Under the pieces are notes generated by a model, which had not been told where the DNA came from, did not search any database, and was given only the letters and a program-made list of their open reading frames with translations. DNA of 45,955 nt from Burkholderiales bacterium (GTDB taxonomy: Bacteria; Pseudomonadota; Gammaproteobacteria; Burkholderiales; Burkholderiaceae_C): positions 1 to 45,955 of the forward strand of contig JANYEE010000072.1 of NCBI GenBank assembly GCA_025363275.1. Reading direction: 5' to 3'. Of this stretch, positions 3,570-45,955 are shown piece by piece; position 1 is the stretch's first letter; the number at the start of each line of letters is the position of its first letter. The position numbers and the translations under genes were made by a program.

Positions 3570-4313
3570 ATGCAATTGCAAGACATTCTTTACTCTCAGG
3601 GCTTCGGAACCCGCCGTGTTTGTGCTGGCCTGGTGCAGCAGGGCCTGGTACAGGTTTATATGGAAAAAGATGCTGTGGCCCCCGTATCTTTTGTGCAAGC
3701 CGCTACAGATTTTGTAGCAGAGGGCTTGCGCTTTCGGGTGCAGGGTGTGGACTGGCCTTTCTATGAAAAAGCCTATGTGCTGCTGCACAAACCTGCAGGC
3801 ACCGAGTGCTCGCAAAAGCCATCCACCTATCCCAGCATTTACACATTGTTGCCTTCGCCGCTGCGTTTGCGTCCGCAAAAGGCGGCGGTGCAGGGCGTGC
3901 AAGCTGTTGGACGGTTGGACCAGGATACGACCGGGCTGCTGCTGCTGACGGACGACGGCAAATTCATCCACCGCATGAGTTCGCCCAAGCACCATGTGCC
4001 CAAGGTGTATGAAGTCACCGTCAAGCACTCGCTGGATGACAAGCAGGTGCAAAAGCTGCTGGGTGGCGTGGTGCTAGATGATGATCCCAAACCGGTACGC
4101 GCTGCCGCCTGTGAGGCGGTGAGCGAATTCCACTTGCGCCTGACCCTCACCGAGGGCAAATACCACCAAGTCAAACGGATGGTGGCAGCCGTGAGTAACC
4201 GGGTGGAAGGCTTGCACCGATCCCAGATAGGCGGCCTGCGCTTGCCAGACGATCTGGCTCCCGGGCAGTGGAAGTGGCTGACGGCTGCGGACTTGGCCTC
4301 CATTGCGGGCTGA
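3570..4313 (+). CDS. Pseudouridine synthase, RsuA/RluE family
   Basis: A 247-residue enzyme that isomerises a uridine in ribosomal RNA. It shows the short N-terminal S4-like RNA-binding segment (about 1-45) and then the synthase domain. The catalytic motif GRLDQDTTGLLLLTDDG contains the essential Asp, KPAGTECS is the usual upstream segment, and EGKYHQVKRM is the family C-terminal motif. Spacing and length fit RsuA, which modifies U516 of 16S rRNA, but RluE/RluF-type activity on 23S rRNA cannot be excluded. No clear ribosome-binding site precedes the ATG. It is divergent from the HD-GYP gene, with 88 bases between them. Confidence 0.88.
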   Translation: MQLQDILYSQGFGTRRVCAGLVQQGLVQVYMEKDAVAPVSFVQAATDFVAEGLRFRVQGVDWPFYEKAYVLLHKPAGTECSQKPSTYPSIYTLLPSPLRLRPQKAAVQGVQAVGRLDQDTTGLLLLTDDGKFIHRMSSPKHHVPKVYEVTVKHSLDDKQVQKLLGGVVLDDDPKPVRAAACEAVSEFHLRLTLTEGKYHQVKRMVAAVSNRVEGLHRSQIGGLRLPDDLAPGQWKWLTAADLASIAG

Positions 4314-5380: not shown

Positions 5381-6182
5381 CAGGTGGCAAGTGTGGCGCA
5401 GTCTTGCTGCGTTTTTGATAGCAGCTTGTGCAGTATCCACCTGGGCTACCGCCCAAAATACTTGTAAAAACCCGGTTTATCTGACGCTGGACACTGGCCA
5501 CATGGATGTAGCTCCGATGATGGCAGATGTGCTGCGCCGCCAGCAGGTCAAGGTCACGTTTTTTGTTGCCAACGAGCGTACTAAGACGGGTGACGGTAGC
5601 CTGGGCAATGCCTGGGGCGCTTGGTGGAAATCGGTGGCAGTGCAGGGTCACGAGTTTGCATCGCACACCTACGACCACGTTTACTGGCGGGGTGACTTGC
5701 CCGGCGTACAACCCCGGTTCCGCATGCGGCCCAGTGCCGGAGCTTTTGAAGGACGCGAATTCACCTGGGAGCCAGCCAAATACTGCGAACAGATCAACCA
5801 TGCAGCTGAGCGCATTGCGGACTACACGGGTAAGAAGCCGCTGCCGCTATTTCGCGCGCCCGGAGGTTTCACGTCGCCCAAATTGCTGGCTGCGGCGCAG
5901 TCCTGCGGCTATGCCCATGTGGGCTGGGCGCCCGCCGGGTTTTTGGGTGACGAACTGCCCAGTGAAAAGTTCAGTAACGACGTTCTGCTGAAAAAGGCCT
6001 TGAAAGATATTCGTACTGGCGACATCCTGATGGCCCACCTGGGTATCTGGTCCCGCAATGACCCTTGGGCACCGGCCAATTTTGAGCCGCTGATTGTAGG
6101 CTTGAAAGAACGCGGATTTTGTTTTGAGACCCTGCGCAACCACCCGGCTTACCGGGACTGGATTGCCAGCCATGGCGGCTAG
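5367..6182 (+). CDS. Secreted polysaccharide deacetylase-family protein with altered metal motif
   Basis: A 271-residue protein with a signal peptide (about 1-29, ending TWATA-QN) and a NodB-type domain. Motif 1 reads LTLDTG rather than the classic TFDDG, so the second Asp, normally a metal ligand, is Thr. Motif 2, SHTYDH, keeps both His residues. RAPGG and TGDILMAHLG correspond to later motifs. The family removes acetyl or formyl groups from sugars or other amides at the cell surface. The altered first motif may define a subgroup with different chemistry. The signal-peptide coding segment (about 5411-5446) matches the dispersed 55-base repeat seen elsewhere in the window. It overlaps the propeller gene and is followed 8 bases later by the hydroxylase-family gene. 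Confidence 0.83.
   Translation: MRRVNRWQVWRSLAAFLIAACAVSTWATAQNTCKNPVYLTLDTGHMDVAPMMADVLRRQQVKVTFFVANERTKTGDGSLGNAWGAWWKSVAVQGHEFASHTYDHVYWRGDLPGVQPRFRMRPSAGAFEGREFTWEPAKYCEQINHAAERIADYTGKKPLPLFRAPGGFTSPKLLAAAQSCGYAHVGWAPAGFLGDELPSEKFSNDVLLKKALKDIRTGDILMAHLGIWSRNDPWAPANFEPLIVGLKERGFCFETLRNHPAYRDWIASHGG
5411..5458 (-). repeat. Copy of the 55-base dispersed repeat inside a coding signal peptide
   Basis: In reverse orientation this segment carries GCCCAGGT, then TACTGC, then GCTGCTAT, lining up with GCCCAGGT / ACTGC / AGCTAT of the intergenic copy at 14902-14956. The second hairpin arm is not recognisable. It encodes about residues 15-30 of the deacetylase. Homology is likely but more diverged than the intergenic copies. 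Confidence 0.55.
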
Positions 6183-12208: not shown

Positions 12209-13687
12209 ATGAAGCCGATTTGGATCGTAGATGATGACCAGTCCATCCGCTTCGTGCTGGAGAAAGCCTTGCTGCGTGAGCATCTCCCCACGCGCAGTTT
12301 CTCCAATCCACGGGATGTATTGGCTGCGCTCAGCACCGCCAGCGACGATGAGGGTCCGCAGATTCTGGTAAGCGACATTCGCATGCCGGGTGGCTCAGGG
12401 CTGGATTTGCTGGAGCAGGTTAAAGCCCGCCACCCAGGTTTACCCGTCATCATCATGACGGCCTTCTCGGACCTGGACAGCGCGGTGAGTTCCTTCCAGG
12501 GCGGCGCCTTTGAGTACCTGCCCAAGCCCTTTGATTTGCCCAAGGCGGTGGAGCTGATTCGCCGTGCAGTGGAAGAAAGCCAGCGCGAAGAGGTGAGCGA
12601 AGAGCGCATGGCCGAGACGCCCGAAATGTTGGGCCAGGCGTCTGCGATGCAGGATGTGTTTCGTGCGATTGGTCGTTTGAGCCAAAGCAATGTGACCGTG
12701 ATGGTGACCGGTGAATCGGGCTCGGGCAAAGAGCTGGTGGCGCGTGCGCTGCACAAGCATTCGCCGCGTGCCAATGGTCCCTTCGTGGCTATCAACACGG
12801 CCGCCATACCCAAAGATCTGCTGGAGAGTGAACTGTTTGGCCATGAACGCGGCGCCTTCACCGGCGCACAGACCATGCGCCGTGGCCGCTTTGAACAGGC
12901 TGATGGCGGTACGCTGTTTCTGGACGAAATTGGCGATATGCCGTTTGAGCTGCAGACGCGATTACTGCGCGTCCTGAGCGATGGCCATTTTTATCGCGTG
13001 GGTGGCCACAGTGCTGTCAAAACCAATGTGCGCGTGATCGCAGCCACCCACCAGGACCTGGAGCAGCGCGTCAAAGACGGCGGCTTTCGTGAAGACTTAT
13101 TCCACCGCTTGAACGTGATTCGCCTGCGCTTGCCGGCCCTGCGCGAGCGCAAGGAAGACATTGGCATGCTCACGCGCCATTTCTTGCAGCAGAGCGCCAA
13201 ACAACTGGGTGTGGAGGCCAAGCGTATTTCTGACGGTGCATTGGGCCGGCTGGAAGTGTTTGCCTTCCCAGGCAATGTGCGCCAACTTGAAAATATTTGC
13301 CACTGGCTCACCGTGATGGCACCCGCCCAGGTGATTGAAGCCAAAGACTTGCCGCCTGAGGTGGGTGTGGGACGCGATTTGAATGCGCCCGCGGTGTTTG
13401 CGAGCTCGCCCGTTGCGGGCGCTGAGGGCTTGCCCCATGTGGCTGGCGCTGGTGTGTCCGCTGGTGGCTCCAGCGGCAACTGGGAAACCGATTTGGAAAC
13501 CGAGGCCGTGGCGCTACTCGGTGGCGGCACCAGCGATGTATGGGATGTGCTGACCCGCAGGTTTGAATCGCGTTTGATCCTCGCGGCTTTGGCCAATACC
13601 AAAGGCCGACGCATCGAAGCCGCGCAAAAGCTCGGCATTGGCCGCAATACCATCACCCGCAAGATCCAGGAGCTGGGTTTAGAGTGA
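12209..13687 (+). CDS. ntrC: Nitrogen regulation response regulator NtrC (sigma-54 activator)
   Basis: A 492-residue enhancer-binding protein. The receiver domain (about 1-120) has IWIVDDDQ and the acceptor Asp in LVSDIRMPGG. The AAA+ domain (about 140-380) has Walker A GESGSGKE, the sigma-54 contact loop GAFTGA and Walker B GGTLFLDEIGDM. A linker rich in Gly/Ala/Val (about 390-430) leads to a Fis-type helix-turn-helix (LANTKGRRIEAAQKLGIGRNTITRKI). It should activate glnA from the sigma-54 promoter at 8993-9008. A copy of the dispersed 55-base repeat begins right after its stop codon. Also called glnG. Confidence 0.96.
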   Translation: MKPIWIVDDDQSIRFVLEKALLREHLPTRSFSNPRDVLAALSTASDDEGPQILVSDIRMPGGSGLDLLEQVKARHPGLPVIIMTAFSDLDSAVSSFQGGAFEYLPKPFDLPKAVELIRRAVEESQREEVSEERMAETPEMLGQASAMQDVFRAIGRLSQSNVTVMVTGESGSGKELVARALHKHSPRANGPFVAINTAAIPKDLLESELFGHERGAFTGAQTMRRGRFEQADGGTLFLDEIGDMPFELQTRLLRVLSDGHFYRVGGHSAVKTNVRVIAATHQDLEQRVKDGGFREDLFHRLNVIRLRLPALRERKEDIGMLTRHFLQQSAKQLGVEAKRISDGALGRLEVFAFPGNVRQLENICHWLTVMAPAQVIEAKDLPPEVGVGRDLNAPAVFASSPVAGAEGLPHVAGAGVSAGGSSGNWETDLETEAVALLGGGTSDVWDVLTRRFESRLILAALANTKGRRIEAAQKLGIGRNTITRKIQELGLE

Positions 13688-13740
13688 AAAGTGGCTAGGG
13701 CCCCAGTAAAGTCTGCCTGATGTGCTATAAAAATAAGAGC
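13688..13740 (+). repeat. 55-base dispersed repeat, copy behind ntrC
   Basis: Carries AAAAGTGGCT, GGCCCC, AGTAAAG, CTGCCTG and the hairpin GCTATAAAAATAAGAGC. It starts on the base after the ntrC TGA. It is the same element as at 14902, 33856, 39777 and (inside gcvT) 45625. Confidence 0.8.
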
Positions 13741-13787
13741 AGATCGCTTAACTAAGATCGTCCAGCTTGCCGGGAGACAATGCGGGC

Positions 13788-14863: not shown

Positions 14864-14901
14864 GGTGTGCTCCTGGTCGCAGTTTCCATTCATTTTTATA
14901 C

Positions 14902-14956
14902 CAAAAGTGCCTGAGGCCCAGGTAAAAACTGCCTGGGTAGCTATTATTTTTATAGC
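14902..14956 (+). repeat. 55-base dispersed repeat, copy at the 3' end of exonuclease III
   Basis: CAAAAGTGCC, GGCCC, AGGTAAAAA, CTGCCTG, GGTAGCTAT and the closing ATAGC arm are all clear. This and the copy at 33856-33910 are the best preserved. The xth stop codon (TAA at 14952-14950) lies inside its hairpin. Confidence 0.85.
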
Positions 14957-15735
14957 GTACTGGTTTCCAACAGCACCGGCGCGTGGTCACTTGGGCGCTC
15001 GTTTTTGCGCGGTGTCTTGTCAATAGTGCAGCCCACCGCTGCGGCTTTGACCGCTGGGCTGACCAGGATGTGGTCGATACGCAGGCCGCGGTTGCGCCTG
15101 AAACCCCCATCGCGGTAATCCCACCACGAAAAATTCTTGGGCGGCTGCGCAAACAGACGCACGCCGTCGTGCAGGCCCAGGGCAATCAGCGCACGCAGGT
15201 GGTAGCGCTCTTCTTCGGTGCAGTGGATGCTGCCCTCCAGCCCCACCGGGTCCCAGACGTCGTCATCGTCGAAGGTGATGTTGTAGTCGCCCATCAACAC
15301 CAGTTGGGGGTGGGCCGCCAGTTCCTCGCGCACCCAGGTGCGCAGGCCCTTGAGCCACTCCATCTTGTATTCAAACTTGTCGCTGCCAGGCTCCTGGCCG
15401 TTGGGGAAATAGGCGCCAATCACCCGCACGCCGTCCACCGTGCCTGTAATCACGCGGGCCATATCGTCGTCAAAGCCCGGGATGTTTTTGACGACGTCGG
15501 TGGCGGGCGTGCGCGATAGCAGGGCCACGCCGTTGTAGGTTTTCTGGCCAAACCACTGCGCCTGATAGCCCGCGTCCAGAAAGGCCTGGGCTGGGAACTT
15601 GTCGTCGGTCATCTTCAGCTCTTGCAGCACCAGCACGTCTACCGGCGAAGCTGTTGCATCCTGCGCGGCCAGCCAGTCCAGTACTTGCGGCAATCGCACG
15701 CTCAAAGAGTTCACATTCCAGGTGGCTAATTTCAT
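14950..15735 (-). CDS. xth: Exodeoxyribonuclease III (AP endonuclease family)
   Basis: A 261-residue DNA repair enzyme that cuts at abasic sites and degrades one strand of duplex DNA from the 3' end. It shows KLATWNVNSLSVRLPQVLDW (N-terminal metal-site Asn), VLVLQELK (metal-binding Glu), MGDYNI, RIDHILVS and the catalytic ending SDHAPVLLE. Length matches the ExoA/Xth family. The stop codon and last codon come from the dispersed repeat that abuts the gene. Confidence 0.95.
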   Translation of the reverse strand: MKLATWNVNSLSVRLPQVLDWLAAQDATASPVDVLVLQELKMTDDKFPAQAFLDAGYQAQWFGQKTYNGVALLSRTPATDVVKNIPGFDDDMARVITGTVDGVRVIGAYFPNGQEPGSDKFEYKMEWLKGLRTWVREELAAHPQLVLMGDYNITFDDDDVWDPVGLEGSIHCTEEERYHLRALIALGLHDGVRLFAQPPKNFSWWDYRDGGFRRNRGLRIDHILVSPAVKAAAVGCTIDKTPRKNERPSDHAPVLLETSTL

Positions 15736-19292: not shown

Positions 19293-19790
19293 TCAATCTT
19301 CCTTCAAAGTGTTTTGGTAAGTGACAAAGCTTAAGGGCAGGCCCTGGGCCGATATGAGGTTGGTGCGAGCCACTTCCCGCCACTCGGGTCCCAGTTCGGG
19401 CGCGGAGGCATCGCCTTCAAAGACCGCGCCAATCTCCGTGACGACTACGCTGTGCGCCAGCGGCAGTGCCTGCCCGTACATTTGCGCACCGCCAATGACC
19501 CACACATGCTCGCTTTGCTCACAAATTTGTAGCGCCTCAGGCAGGTTTTGTGCGGGCCTCGCACCGTTTTCATTCCAATCCTGCTGCCGGGTGACGACTA
19601 CATTGGTGCGCCCCGGCAAGGGGCGGAATTTGGTGGGAATGGAATCCCAGGTCTTGCGTCCCATGATCACCGGGCAACCCAGCGTAGTGCGTTTGAAGTG
19701 CGCCAGGTCCTCTGGCAGGTGCCAAGGCATGGTGCCCTTGAAGCCAATGACGCCATTGGCAGCGCGGGCATAGATGAGGTGCAGTTGCAT
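19293..19790 (-). CDS. folA: Dihydrofolate reductase
   Basis: A 165-residue enzyme that reduces dihydrofolate to tetrahydrofolate with NADPH. Seen are LIYARAANGVIGFKGTMPWHLPEDLAHFK in overlapping segments (substrate pocket with the Trp-His-Leu-Pro-Glu-Asp stretch), MGRKTWDSI, LPGRTNVVVTR and VIGGAQMYGQALP (NADPH-binding). The start MQLHLIY at 19790 fits the family; a longer frame to 19874 only adds an unconserved tail. It lies 19 bases after thyA, whose reaction makes its substrate. Confidence 0.96.
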   Translation of the reverse strand: MQLHLIYARAANGVIGFKGTMPWHLPEDLAHFKRTTLGCPVIMGRKTWDSIPTKFRPLPGRTNVVVTRQQDWNENGARPAQNLPEALQICEQSEHVWVIGGAQMYGQALPLAHSVVVTEIGAVFEGDASAPELGPEWREVARTNLISAQGLPLSFVTYQNTLKED

Positions 19791-23243: not shown

Positions 23244-24458
23244 ATGCCCCATTTACAACGACTACGCGCCTGGATAGCCGATGTGGCCAAAGTGCCATGG
23301 CCGGACGCGCTTTTGACCCTGCGCGAGCGCTTTCGCGAGGACCGCCTGGGCTTGACCGCCAGCAGTCTGACTTTCACGACCATCATCGCCCTGGTGCCCT
23401 TCATTACGGTGGCACTGGCTCTGTTTACAGCCTTCCCAATGTTTGCCAAATTTCAGGATGTGCTGCAAAAGTGGCTAGTCGATAGCTTGGTGCCTGACAA
23501 TATTGCCCGCCAAGTGCTGGGTTACTTGAACCAATTTGCAGGCAAGGCGAGCAAATTAGGTGCCGTGGGTCTGGCTTTTTTGCTGGGCACGGCGTTAGCG
23601 CTGATTTTTACGATCGACCGTACGCTCAATAGCATCTGGCGGGTACGTACCCCGCGGCCGGTGGGCCAACGGGTGTTGATTTACTGGGGCGCGCTTACCC
23701 TAGGGCCCCTAGTCCTGGGGGCCAGCTTGAGCATGACTTCGTATGCTTTGTCGGCCTCGCAAGGCTTGGCGGGGGTGCTGCCAGGTGGAGTCAGCGTGTT
23801 GCTGGAAGTGCTGCAATTGGGGCTGGTGGGAGGGGGAATGGCCACTATGTTCCATTACGTACCCAATACCCACGTGCGCTGGGGCCACGCCTGGATGGGC
23901 GGCATATTTGTAGCTGCTGGGCTGGAGATCGCCAAGCGCGTACTGGCCTGGTACCTCGGTATGGTGCCCACCTACTCGGTGGTCTACGGAGCCTTTGCCA
24001 CGGTGCCCATTTTGCTGATCTGGATCTATACCGCGTGGGTGATTGTGCTGCTGGGGGCCGCGCTCACCGCCTATGTGCCCAGCCTGATTGCTGGCACACA
24101 GCGGCGCCGTGTGGGACAGGGCTGGCAGTTTCAGTTGGCGCTAGAGGTGCTGCAGCAACTGGCTTTGGCGCGGCCCCTGTATGCCAAAGGCCTGACGGCA
24201 AGCCAACTGGGTGTGGCCCTGCAAACCGACGCGCTGCGCCTGGAGCCCGTGTTAGAGACTTTGTCTGCATTGGACTGGACTGGGCAACTGGTCGAAGGTA
24301 GCGGTACTGAGGAGGCGCGCTTTGTATTGCTGGTTGACCCAGAAAAAACCGCCCTGACACCGCTGATGGCGGCTTTGCTACTGCCGCATACGCCAATCAC
24401 TGAAAAATTATGGAGTAATGGCCAATGGCCCGCTGTTTCATTGCATGAGGTGCTATGA
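23244..24458 (+). CDS. YihY/BrkB-family inner membrane protein
   Basis: A 404-residue protein. The membrane part (about residues 30-280) has six hydrophobic segments and the family motif ASSLTFTTIIALVPFITV. It also has TIDRTLNSIWRV and YGAFATVPILLIWIYTAWVIVLLGA. A cytoplasmic C-terminal region of about 120 residues follows. Once annotated as ribonuclease BN in error, the family is of unclear function. The stop codon TGA (24456-24458) falls within a hairpin that matches the dispersed repeat. Confidence 0.9.
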   Translation: MPHLQRLRAWIADVAKVPWPDALLTLRERFREDRLGLTASSLTFTTIIALVPFITVALALFTAFPMFAKFQDVLQKWLVDSLVPDNIARQVLGYLNQFAGKASKLGAVGLAFLLGTALALIFTIDRTLNSIWRVRTPRPVGQRVLIYWGALTLGPLVLGASLSMTSYALSASQGLAGVLPGGVSVLLEVLQLGLVGGGMATMFHYVPNTHVRWGHAWMGGIFVAAGLEIAKRVLAWYLGMVPTYSVVYGAFATVPILLIWIYTAWVIVLLGAALTAYVPSLIAGTQRRRVGQGWQFQLALEVLQQLALARPLYAKGLTASQLGVALQTDALRLEPVLETLSALDWTGQLVEGSGTEEARFVLLVDPEKTALTPLMAALLLPHTPITEKLWSNGQWPAVSLHEVL

Positions 24459-24470
24459 AAATAATAGCTG
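24446..24470 (-). repeat. Partial copy of the dispersed repeat (hairpin part)
   Basis: GCTATGAAAATAATAGC at 24452-24468 is the hairpin section of the 55-base element. The GGCCC/GTAAA/CTGCCTG section is not evident, so this is a fragment or a chance match. It contains the stop codon of the YihY-family gene. Confidence 0.45.
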
Positions 24471-24481
24471 CGATAGTTATA

Positions 24482-33841: not shown

Positions 33842-33855
33842 GCCTATTTTTATGT

Positions 33856-33910
33856 CAAAACGGCCGCTGGCCCTAGTAAAACCTGCCTGAGTAGCTATCA
33901 ATATAATAGC
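33856..33910 (+). repeat. 55-base dispersed repeat, copy between aroC and aroQ
   Basis: CAAAACGGCC, GGCCC, TAGTAAAAC, CTGCCTG, AGTAGCTAT and ATAGC, with exactly the length of the copy at 14902-14956. It occupies half of the 114-base space between the two shikimate-pathway genes. Confidence 0.85.
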
Positions 33911-33955
33911 GACTATGCAGGGTGGCGAGTTGCCTGCGTTCACTGAAAGCCATGT

Positions 33956-39776: not shown

Positions 39777-39831
39777 TAAAAAGGATCGCAGGCCCGCATG
39801 TAATATGCCTAGACAGCTATCAATTTAGGAG
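39777..39831 (+). repeat. 55-base dispersed repeat, degenerate copy at the 3' end of an acetyltransferase gene
   Basis: AAAAAGGATCGCA, GGCCCGC, ATGTAATA, TGCCTAG and AGCTATCAATTTAGGAG follow the same order and spacing as the other copies, though the closing hairpin arm is eroded. The acetyltransferase stop (TAA at 39827-39825) lies within it. Confidence 0.65.
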
Positions 39832-45346: not shown

Positions 45347-45955
45347 TTAGCCGCGGAAATAATTGGTGGGCACAAACGGCATAGCGCTCACCAGCATCGG
45401 CACCGGTTTGCCCCGCACAATGGCAATCACCTGCGTGCCCAGCGGGCTAAAGGCGCTGTCTACATAGCCCATGGCCACACACTTGTCGATGGTGGGGCCG
45501 AGCAGGCCGCTGGTCACTTCGCCTATTCGGTTGCCCGCGCCGTCTTGCAGTTCGGTGTGGTCGCGCACGGGAATACGCTCCTGGGCAATCAAGCCGACCC
45601 GCTTTCGGTTTTTTAGGGTATTTTCAGAAGCATTTATGCCTGGGGCCCGCGTAGAGTCTGCCAGTGCCGCTAGTATTTTTGTAGCACCCGGAAAGCCACC
45701 TTCGCGCGCACCCCCCGTCCGGCGTACCCTTTGCATGGCCCACAGTAGACCGGCTTCGACCGGTGTGGTGGTGGTGTCAATGTCGTTGCCATACAGGCAC
45801 AGGCCCGCTTCCAGACGCAGCGAGTTGCGCGCGCCCAGTCCAATCGGCTTCACTTCAGGCTGGGCCAGTAAAGCGCGGGCCAGGGCGTCAGCGTGGTCGT
45901 TATGGACGGAGATCTCGAAACCGTCCTCGCCGGTGTAGCCGCTACGGGTCAGGAA
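45347..45955 (-). CDS. gcvT: Glycine cleavage system T protein (aminomethyltransferase), C-terminal part, with an in-frame repeat insertion
   Basis: The last 202 codons or so are visible; the 5' end is outside the window. RSGYTGEDGFEISVHN and KPIGLGARNSLRLEAGLCLYG are conserved folate/methylene-transfer regions, and the C-terminus GYVDSAFSPLGTQVIAIVRGK to FVPTNYFRG fits betaproteobacterial GcvT. Between FPGATKILA and KRVGLIAQE lies ALADSTRAPGINASENTLKN, longer than the short loop I expect in relatives. The DNA of that loop (45625-45687) is a copy of the dispersed 55-base repeat. The frame stays open, so the enzyme is probably made with extra loop residues. First gene of the operon with gcvH, gcvP and sdaA. 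Confidence 0.93.
   Translation of the reverse strand, partial: FLTRSGYTGEDGFEISVHNDHADALARALLAQPEVKPIGLGARNSLRLEAGLCLYGNDIDTTTTPVEAGLLWAMQRVRRTGGAREGGFPGATKILAALADSTRAPGINASENTLKNRKRVGLIAQERIPVRDHTELQDGAGNRIGEVTSGLLGPTIDKCVAMGYVDSAFSPLGTQVIAIVRGKPVPMLVSAMPFVPTNYFRG
45625..45687 (+). repeat. 55-base dispersed repeat, copy inside the gcvT coding sequence
   Basis: CAGAAGCATTTATGCCTGG, GGCCCGCGTAGAGTCTGCC and GCTAGTATTTTTGTAGC follow the order of the intergenic copies. Against the copy behind ntrC, the 20 bases ending in GGCCC on the coding strand (GGCAGACT, C or T, TAC, two variable bases, GGGCCC) differ at three positions. It is translated in frame on the opposite strand. Confidence 0.72.

Follow-up and report, generated by a model that had tools for sequence, protein, structure and literature searches.

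A loop of the glycine cleavage enzyme GcvT was found to be encoded by one copy of a family of dispersed elements, some of whose members lie in frame within this and other genes, leave protein length constant at several of them, lean there towards the version of the element that is proper to the home genome and show block-wise association of their variable letters. Templated copying between the dispersed copies, i.e. ectopic gene conversion, is considered the most likely mechanism, with a probability somewhat below one half (about 0.45). The analysis started from contig JANYEE010000072.1, positions 1 to 45,955 (the whole stretch of 45,955 nucleotides is referred to as the window), of a genome designated G000; other G numbers denote genomes compared with it.

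A copy of a dispersed repeat in gcvT

The open reading frame at 45347..45955 on the minus strand encodes the C-terminal half of GcvT, aminomethyltransferase (TIGR00528, PF01571, PF08669), its 5' end lying beyond the window edge. The loop DNA at 45627..45686 (minus strand) matched positions 2-61 of profile R1 free of gaps, with 43.8 bits and an E-value of 8.6e-13. R1 was built from 21 copies elsewhere in G000, with the gcvT copy excluded from the model; its seed loci were taken from a BLAST of the gcvT loop against its own genome (30 rows including self), so the R1 score for gcvT is flattered. With a wider profile made from 52 copies in 400 kb of G000, the gcvT copy scored 28.8 bits. As controls, R1 reached at most 8.6 bits on 446 kb of reversed G000 sequence, at most 7.5 bits on Markov sequence and at most 7.4 bits on 200 kb from a genome of another family, while the same 446 kb in its natural order gave 56 matches above 12 bits. 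The gcvT copy also outscored every one of 1000 synonymous recodings of the peptide it encodes when scored with a matrix made from 38 copies outside genes. Consequently, the original prediction that a dispersed repeat supplies the DNA of this loop and is read in frame in a core enzyme was borne out (43.8 and 28.8 bits, controls below 9 bits). The comparison with relatives lacking the family pointed the same way, as G018, G023 and G031 had no copy in 60, 20 and 200 kb respectively and their gcvT was element-free, as far as these genomes were sampled.

The reading frame of gcvT is kept through the element (GCT ACA AAA ATA CTA ...), the codons starting at element column 3. Both ATA and CTA are rare in G000 (3.5 and 5.9 per 1000 codons respectively). 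The pair ATA CTA is kept in the gcvT loop of G000, G001, G003, G015, G022 and G012, the pair being ATA ATA in G009 and ATC CTA in G020, G007 and G013. The 5' part of the copy (45659..45685, minus strand) provides the codons for ATKILAALA, residues 91-99, which form a helix in the predicted structure of the truncated protein (mean pLDDT 69, a prediction of moderate quality); in several element-free relatives the place of ATKILAAL is taken by ADKILAxI/L or something similar. Residues 102-112 (codons at 45620..45652, minus strand) come mostly from the 3' half of the element, in the G000 version GGGCCCCAGGC, together with the first codons beyond it, and in the same predicted structure they have a pLDDT below 50 and lie between the folate-binding and C-terminal barrel domains. 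The in-frame reading predicts the tryptic peptides ILAALADSTR and APGINASENTLK.

Abundance, form and distribution of the element

The element is about 62 bp long with a GC content of 48%. In 815 kb of G000 (22% of the genome), 115 copies were found, i.e. about 14 per 100 kb or one per 7 kb, which by extrapolation gives roughly 500 copies per genome; a search of the whole genome returned at least 150 matches, all those listed having an E-value below 1e-9. DNA stretches of six relatives each gave a consensus of their own at 11-16 copies per 100 kb, while G013 and G012 yielded 2 and 1 copies, too few for a consensus. When one genome from each of 60 genera of the GTDB family was searched with a general model made of 42 copies from seven genomes, 27 gave a match, with at least 22 copies in 18 of the 27 and 1-8 copies in the other 9, counted among at most the best 89 matches per genome under stricter filters. 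The two nearest named GcvT relatives of the window genome are Rhodoferax assemblies. In a gcvT tree of 40 rows, the 13 carriers fell inside one clade of 20 rows and required at least five changes, for example one gain and four losses. In one relative, five similar copies stand on one strand within about 6 kb (G015:C91:120001-140000), an apparent local burst.

Information is spread over most of columns 2-56, the conserved 5' half reading GCTAY...AGC, and peaks at columns 5, 17, 29, 42 and 54, a spacing of about 12 bp which is odd for B-DNA. Indels are few, 58 matches needing one extra column, a result which is favoured by the cutting of copies for the later analyses as ungapped windows. RNAalifold found 0 pairs and no consensus secondary structure in the 42 copies of seven genomes, 6 pairs devoid of covariation were found in 21 copies within G000, and the DNA fold of a typed consensus had a z of -0.56; RNA structure was therefore rejected as a conserved feature for lack of support in RNAalifold. 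Replichore polarity was likewise absent among the matches listed, 491 (G007, 89 copies) and 674 (G001, 60 copies) of 1000 random draws being as polar.

Within the window, the top-scoring copy (14900..14957, minus strand, 55.1 bits) and the copy at 33853..33911 (minus strand, 44.6 bits) were not judged to be in genes. On the plus strand, a copy at 19515..19572 (R1 match 19515-19560) overlies codons of folA, the gene of dihydrofolate reductase (DHFR), antisense to that gene. Further minus-strand copies lie at 13682..13741 (35.1 bits), at 39791..39831 (a partial copy of 27 bits) and at 3672..3719 (a weak copy of 18.8 bits); an open frame runs across this last one, yet it is outside the in-gene set described below, and a copy with similar flanks is present in the relative G022. 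Weaker R1 matches are at 5415-5457, 24451-24471 and 13723-13744. The Rfam search of the window at gathering thresholds identified the tmRNA gene (RF00023; 700-1088, minus strand) and no other family.

Copies within genes

A copy was counted as in-gene when it had coding flanks on both sides and no stop over 30 codons on either side, a rule which gave 27 of the 115 in the G000 sample (two other rules, the first of them strict, gave 7 of 55 and 14 of 55); of the others, 3 contain an internal stop, 84 lie outside genes and 1 is at an edge. Random 58-nt stretches passed the rule in 858 of 1500 cases. Genes are therefore avoided by the element but are not closed to it. The in-gene copies use mainly two reading frames (21/27), which are also the commonest open frames of the copies outside genes (55/84 and 44/84). 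Named hosts include GcvT, DHFR, MetG, MurD, RmlD, TldD, AroA, ThiL, RarA, glutathione reductase, SucB, XdhB, PbpC and L-2-hydroxyglutarate oxidase; MnmE, UvrD, RlmKL and RlmB are also carriers. For each of the 27 in-gene copies, 1000 synonymous recodings of the encoded peptide all scored lower, which is support rather than independent proof because the copies had been chosen by score and the test is partly circular. The coding effect of the element is best regarded as a by-product. In uvrD of G008, the DNA is GC-rich and native-looking, yet the peptide which it encodes, AIKSGAAYAYSTG, is close to that coded by the element in the relatives and is possibly the protein fossil of a lost copy.

Lengths of the host proteins

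The span from GGAR to RVGL in GcvT is 42 residues in G000 and 32-39 in nine element-bearing relatives, compared with 31-37 in three listed element-free relatives and less in others; the G000 loop is thus the longest among those listed for its genus. The suggestion that the loop is longer than expected was half right: it holds for G000 within this comparison, but the span is about 40-41 residues in two element-free Variovorax, and the ranges overlap, with 32 residues both in the carrier G022 and in the non-carrier G008. Given the Variovorax spans and the overlapping lengths within the genus, loop length was rejected as a marker of insertion.

At two other genes, carriers and non-carriers could be compared directly. 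Protein alignments ran gap-free through the element in 21 complete rows of the genus for mnmE and 23 for rlmKL, with only some rows carrying the element in each; non-carriers have GC-rich codons at the element site, and the native peptides are rich in alanine and resemble the translation of the element. RmlD, glutathione reductase (gor) and DHFR (folA, including the copy in the window) are gap-free through the element against solved homologues. AroA is 5 residues longer, and metG linkers are often longer in carriers, some non-carriers being long too. The claim of new protein sequence in a core enzyme must therefore be divided, since G000 gcvT, aroA and several metG linkers are longer, whereas in mnmE and rlmKL the element overlies native codons and none are added. 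The further parallel with palindromic mobile insertions of the Rickettsia type was not supported, in view of the constant length of mnmE and rlmKL with or without the element and of the absence of a consensus fold in the 42 copies of seven genomes. In the genes tested, the aligned sequences suggest that the element is mostly not an insertion.

Species versions at shared sites

The families of different genomes differ in columns 21-50, where identity is 0.55-0.70 within genomes and 0.39-0.58 between them, and hardly differ in columns 3-20 (0.62-0.73 within, 0.60-0.70 between). Synteny placed a copy at the same place of gcvT in all five relatives compared. In a first mapping by synteny, 9 of 61 G000 copies could be placed in the DNA of relatives; clean same-place copies were those of gcvT, an allantoate amidohydrolase-like gene, puuD and folA (in G022, with none over threshold in G007). 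The same-place match of locus L189:1184 (in G003) was fair, L185:2718 and L185:15054 were ambiguous, with differing gaps and, for the latter, no copy in G022, and L188:7499 and L188:9808 were placed only in G013 and G023, genomes outside the copy scoring. As the filter for such pairs passed 35, many of them false, the comparison of G000 with G009 was restricted to gcvT, the amidohydrolase-like gene and puuD. The two flanks, columns 3-20 and columns 21-50 had identities of 0.92/0.91, 0.89 and 0.47 in gcvT, of 0.79/0.76, 1.00 and 0.43 in the amidohydrolase-like gene, and of 0.65/0.81, 0.89 and 0.33 in puuD.

When orthologous in-gene copies from seven genomes and six genes were scored against the profiles of all families, the profile of their own genome was the best in 18 of 34, and in 18 of 29 (4.8 expected) once the close relative G001 was set aside. 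Permutation of labels on the 34 gave a maximum of 160.2 against an observed statistic of 259.5 (0/20,000), in line with an earlier three-gene version (own profile best in 11/20, permutation 0/5000). The 34 leave out folA of G015, G001, G007 and G003, where the extraction window missed the site (the extracted folA DNA of G001, G003 and G007 still matched at 17.1, 24.6 and 11.9 bits), rlmKL of G015, G003 and G022, which had a place score of 10 or less, and all genes of G020, G012 and G013, which lacked a profile of their own family; a full mnmE match is absent from G022.

Of 20 in-gene copies, 18 resembled their own family more, by mean identity, than the other families. Only two of the 20 (gcvT of G009 and uvrD of G000) had a higher mean identity to their own family than to the orthologous copies, with one level, and 16 of the 34 copies fit the profile of another family better than their own. 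The mnmE, folA and rlmKL copies of G009 do not have the G009 version, their own profile ranking 7, 4 and 7 of 7. The small number of copies closer to their family, together with these exceptions in G009, indicates that homogenisation in genes is partial. The lagging copies of G009 are at sites of constant length, where selection may be slowing their change; alternatively, the change in G009 may be young.

Block association

Mutual information among columns 21-50 was above that of all 200 shuffles in G000, G007, G009, G015 and G022; the shuffles were not exceeded in G003, and in G015 columns 3-20 did not exceed them either. Pairs of copies with identical 8-mers in columns 30-37 numbered 85 in G000 (shuffle mean 6.8), 237 in G009 (77), 7 in G015 (0.1), 5 in G007 (0.5) and 4 in G003 (0.2), beyond all 300 shuffles in each of the five; in G022 such pairs did not outnumber those of the shuffles, and chance level was found for several other column windows. 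Letters that change block-wise favour copying over independent point mutation, and block association would also be expected where old versions are mixed with new ones. The rlmKL sites form a graded series in nhmmer, with 4.2, 6.5, 14.3, 24.6, 26.7 and 29.6 bits, which fits stepwise mutation as well.

Mechanism and rival explanations

The preferred reading may be put as follows. A non-palindromic dispersed element of 62 bp, present in part of the GTDB family, occupies common sites in several species wherever these were compared, and its 3' half (columns 21-50) has shifted towards the version of each species, in genes as elsewhere, with the frame unchanged and the length often so. We infer that this happened by ectopic gene conversion, which would be only partial and might use the conserved 5' half GCTAY...AGC as its anchor, and the copying may extend onto native DNA which already resembles the element. 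Coding copies would be passengers, kept where the open frames, mainly one per strand, yield a tolerable peptide. Gene conversion is said to have been proposed for REPs by Higgins in 1988. Several observations count against simple copying, namely the graded rlmKL series, the low identity between copies and the 12-bp blocks with few indels, and paralogues closer than orthologues, the hallmark of concerted evolution, occurred in just 2 of 20 in-gene copies. In addition, 60 bp at 60-70% identity is a poor RecA substrate, and we know of no recombinase or donor for such a conversion.

The main rival, a possible though less probable explanation, is a drive similar to that of uptake sequences, whereby the element would serve for recognition, either in DNA uptake or by a DNA-binding protein, with species dialects arising by point mutation and biased recombination as in DUS/USS. 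It accounts for the conserved blocks about 12 bp apart (columns 5, 17, 29, 42 and 54), for the scarcity of indels (one extra column for 58 matches, with the ungapped cutting in its favour), for species versions at common places, for the absence of replichore polarity, for the presence within coding DNA with no insertion, for the graded rlmKL series and for the patchy occurrence in the family (matches in 27/60 genera and at least 22 in 18 of these, among the matches listed). Against it, 62 bp is far longer than the 10-12 bases of DUS, there is about one copy per 7 kb, the letters of variable columns move as blocks in most genomes, and neither an uptake bias nor a receptor is known here.

In-frame insertion of a mobile element of the Rickettsia palindromic type, trimmed afterwards, would explain the many unrelated genes entered in frame, mostly in two frames (21/27), the 5 residues added to AroA, the G000 gcvT loop being the longest among those listed for its genus, and the longer metG linkers of many carriers, some non-carriers also being long; it is nevertheless improbable given the gap-free alignments of carriers with non-carriers in mnmE and rlmKL and of rmlD, gor and folA with solved homologues, the lack of a palindrome, and places common to several species. 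Species versions at shared sites could also come from independent repeated insertion there or from imported gene alleles of other species, but the register is identical in several genes and the spacer letters of the 5' half are conserved between species, while the fit of copies to the home version argues against import, which makes this explanation very unlikely. Least credible, with hardly any probability left to it, is a chance or protein-driven likeness in which some peptides happen to yield element-like DNA: the Ala-rich native peptides of mnmE and rlmKL do resemble the translation of the element, but all 27 in-gene copies scored above their 1000 recodings (in the score-chosen, partly circular test), the reversed, Markov and outgroup controls stayed below 9 bits, and gcvT is element-free in the three sampled genomes that lack the family.

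Meaning for protein evolution

In the usual picture, short dispersed repeats reach proteins by insertion and stay out of conserved segments. The present element covers segments of conserved enzymes whose length stays constant, and where it lies in genes it tends towards the version carried by the home genome. A broader proposal, doubtful at present and put forward tentatively, is that a template-directed process would keep changing several hundred sites per genome, among them codons in conserved enzymes (AroA, DHFR, RlmKL, RmlD, glutathione reductase, MnmE, GcvT), towards a 62-bp signature proper to each species, mostly with no DNA inserted and possibly through dedicated machinery with a function at the DNA level for which the proteins make room. 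Since the lean to the home version occurs at constant length, it is testable whether ectopic copying or motif drive opposes purifying selection on protein sequence. Repeat copying may thus rewrite pieces of working proteins, and a DNA repeat may determine some of the variation seen in core proteins of these bacteria.

Comparison with known systems

None of the four systems compared here, the Rickettsia palindromic element (RPE), DUS, REP and the beta-proteobacterial repeat element BRE, fits all the features tested. No earlier description of the element family was recognised among the open-licence papers listed; in excerpts of the R. ferrireducens genome paper, palindromic repeats are named for CRISPR only (PMC2755013), and the six terms sought are absent from PMC12306157.

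RPEs are described as insertions of about 150 bp that add a peptide in frame (Ogata 2000, 2002, as cited in PMC10969869). Like them, the present element is a dispersed repeat found in frame in unrelated genes as well as elsewhere; unlike them, it has 62 bp, no palindrome was found in it, several host genes carry it with no added length, and it has species-specific versions. REP and REPIN sequences are presented as hundreds of short palindromic repeats per genome, mostly extragenic, with 14 of the over-represented 16-mers overlapping genes in SBW25 (PMC3116915). The element shares with REP the hundreds of short repeats per genome and differs from it in that 27 of 115 copies are in genes and there is no consensus hairpin. 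Two RAYT-type genes (PF01797) are present in G000, one of which, flanked by another repeat, has a copy of the element beside it: at G000:C6:733-1062 (minus strand), a RAYT-like Y1 transposase gene is flanked by an inverted repeat, AAAGGGGCCAGGCTCG, with the element copy adjoining and a neighbouring gene which resembles upp (by eye only). A RAYT was not adopted as the cognate transposase, the examined one of the two genes being flanked by that other repeat.

BRE is reported as a repeat which in Bordetella has 75-91 bp and 69% GC, partly tandem, with some copies in coding sequences and 4 copies counted in R. ferrireducens at the cut-off of its authors (PMC3110155). Both are dispersed repeats of Comamonadaceae including Rhodoferax with some copies in coding sequences, whereas the present element, at 62 bp and 48% GC with 115 copies in 815 kb, differs from BRE in length, GC content and number, and a link between the two is possible. 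Unlike the polar motifs Chi and KOPS, the element has no orientation bias along the replichores of G007 and G001 among the matches listed. DUS dialects of Neisseriaceae have 10-12 bases and differ between related species, and intragenic sites are described as common (PMC3630211). Compared with that short core, the element is longer at 62 bp, carries information over most of columns 2-56 and shows block-wise association; like DUS, it occupies many dispersed sites, coding and intergenic, in the dialect of each species.
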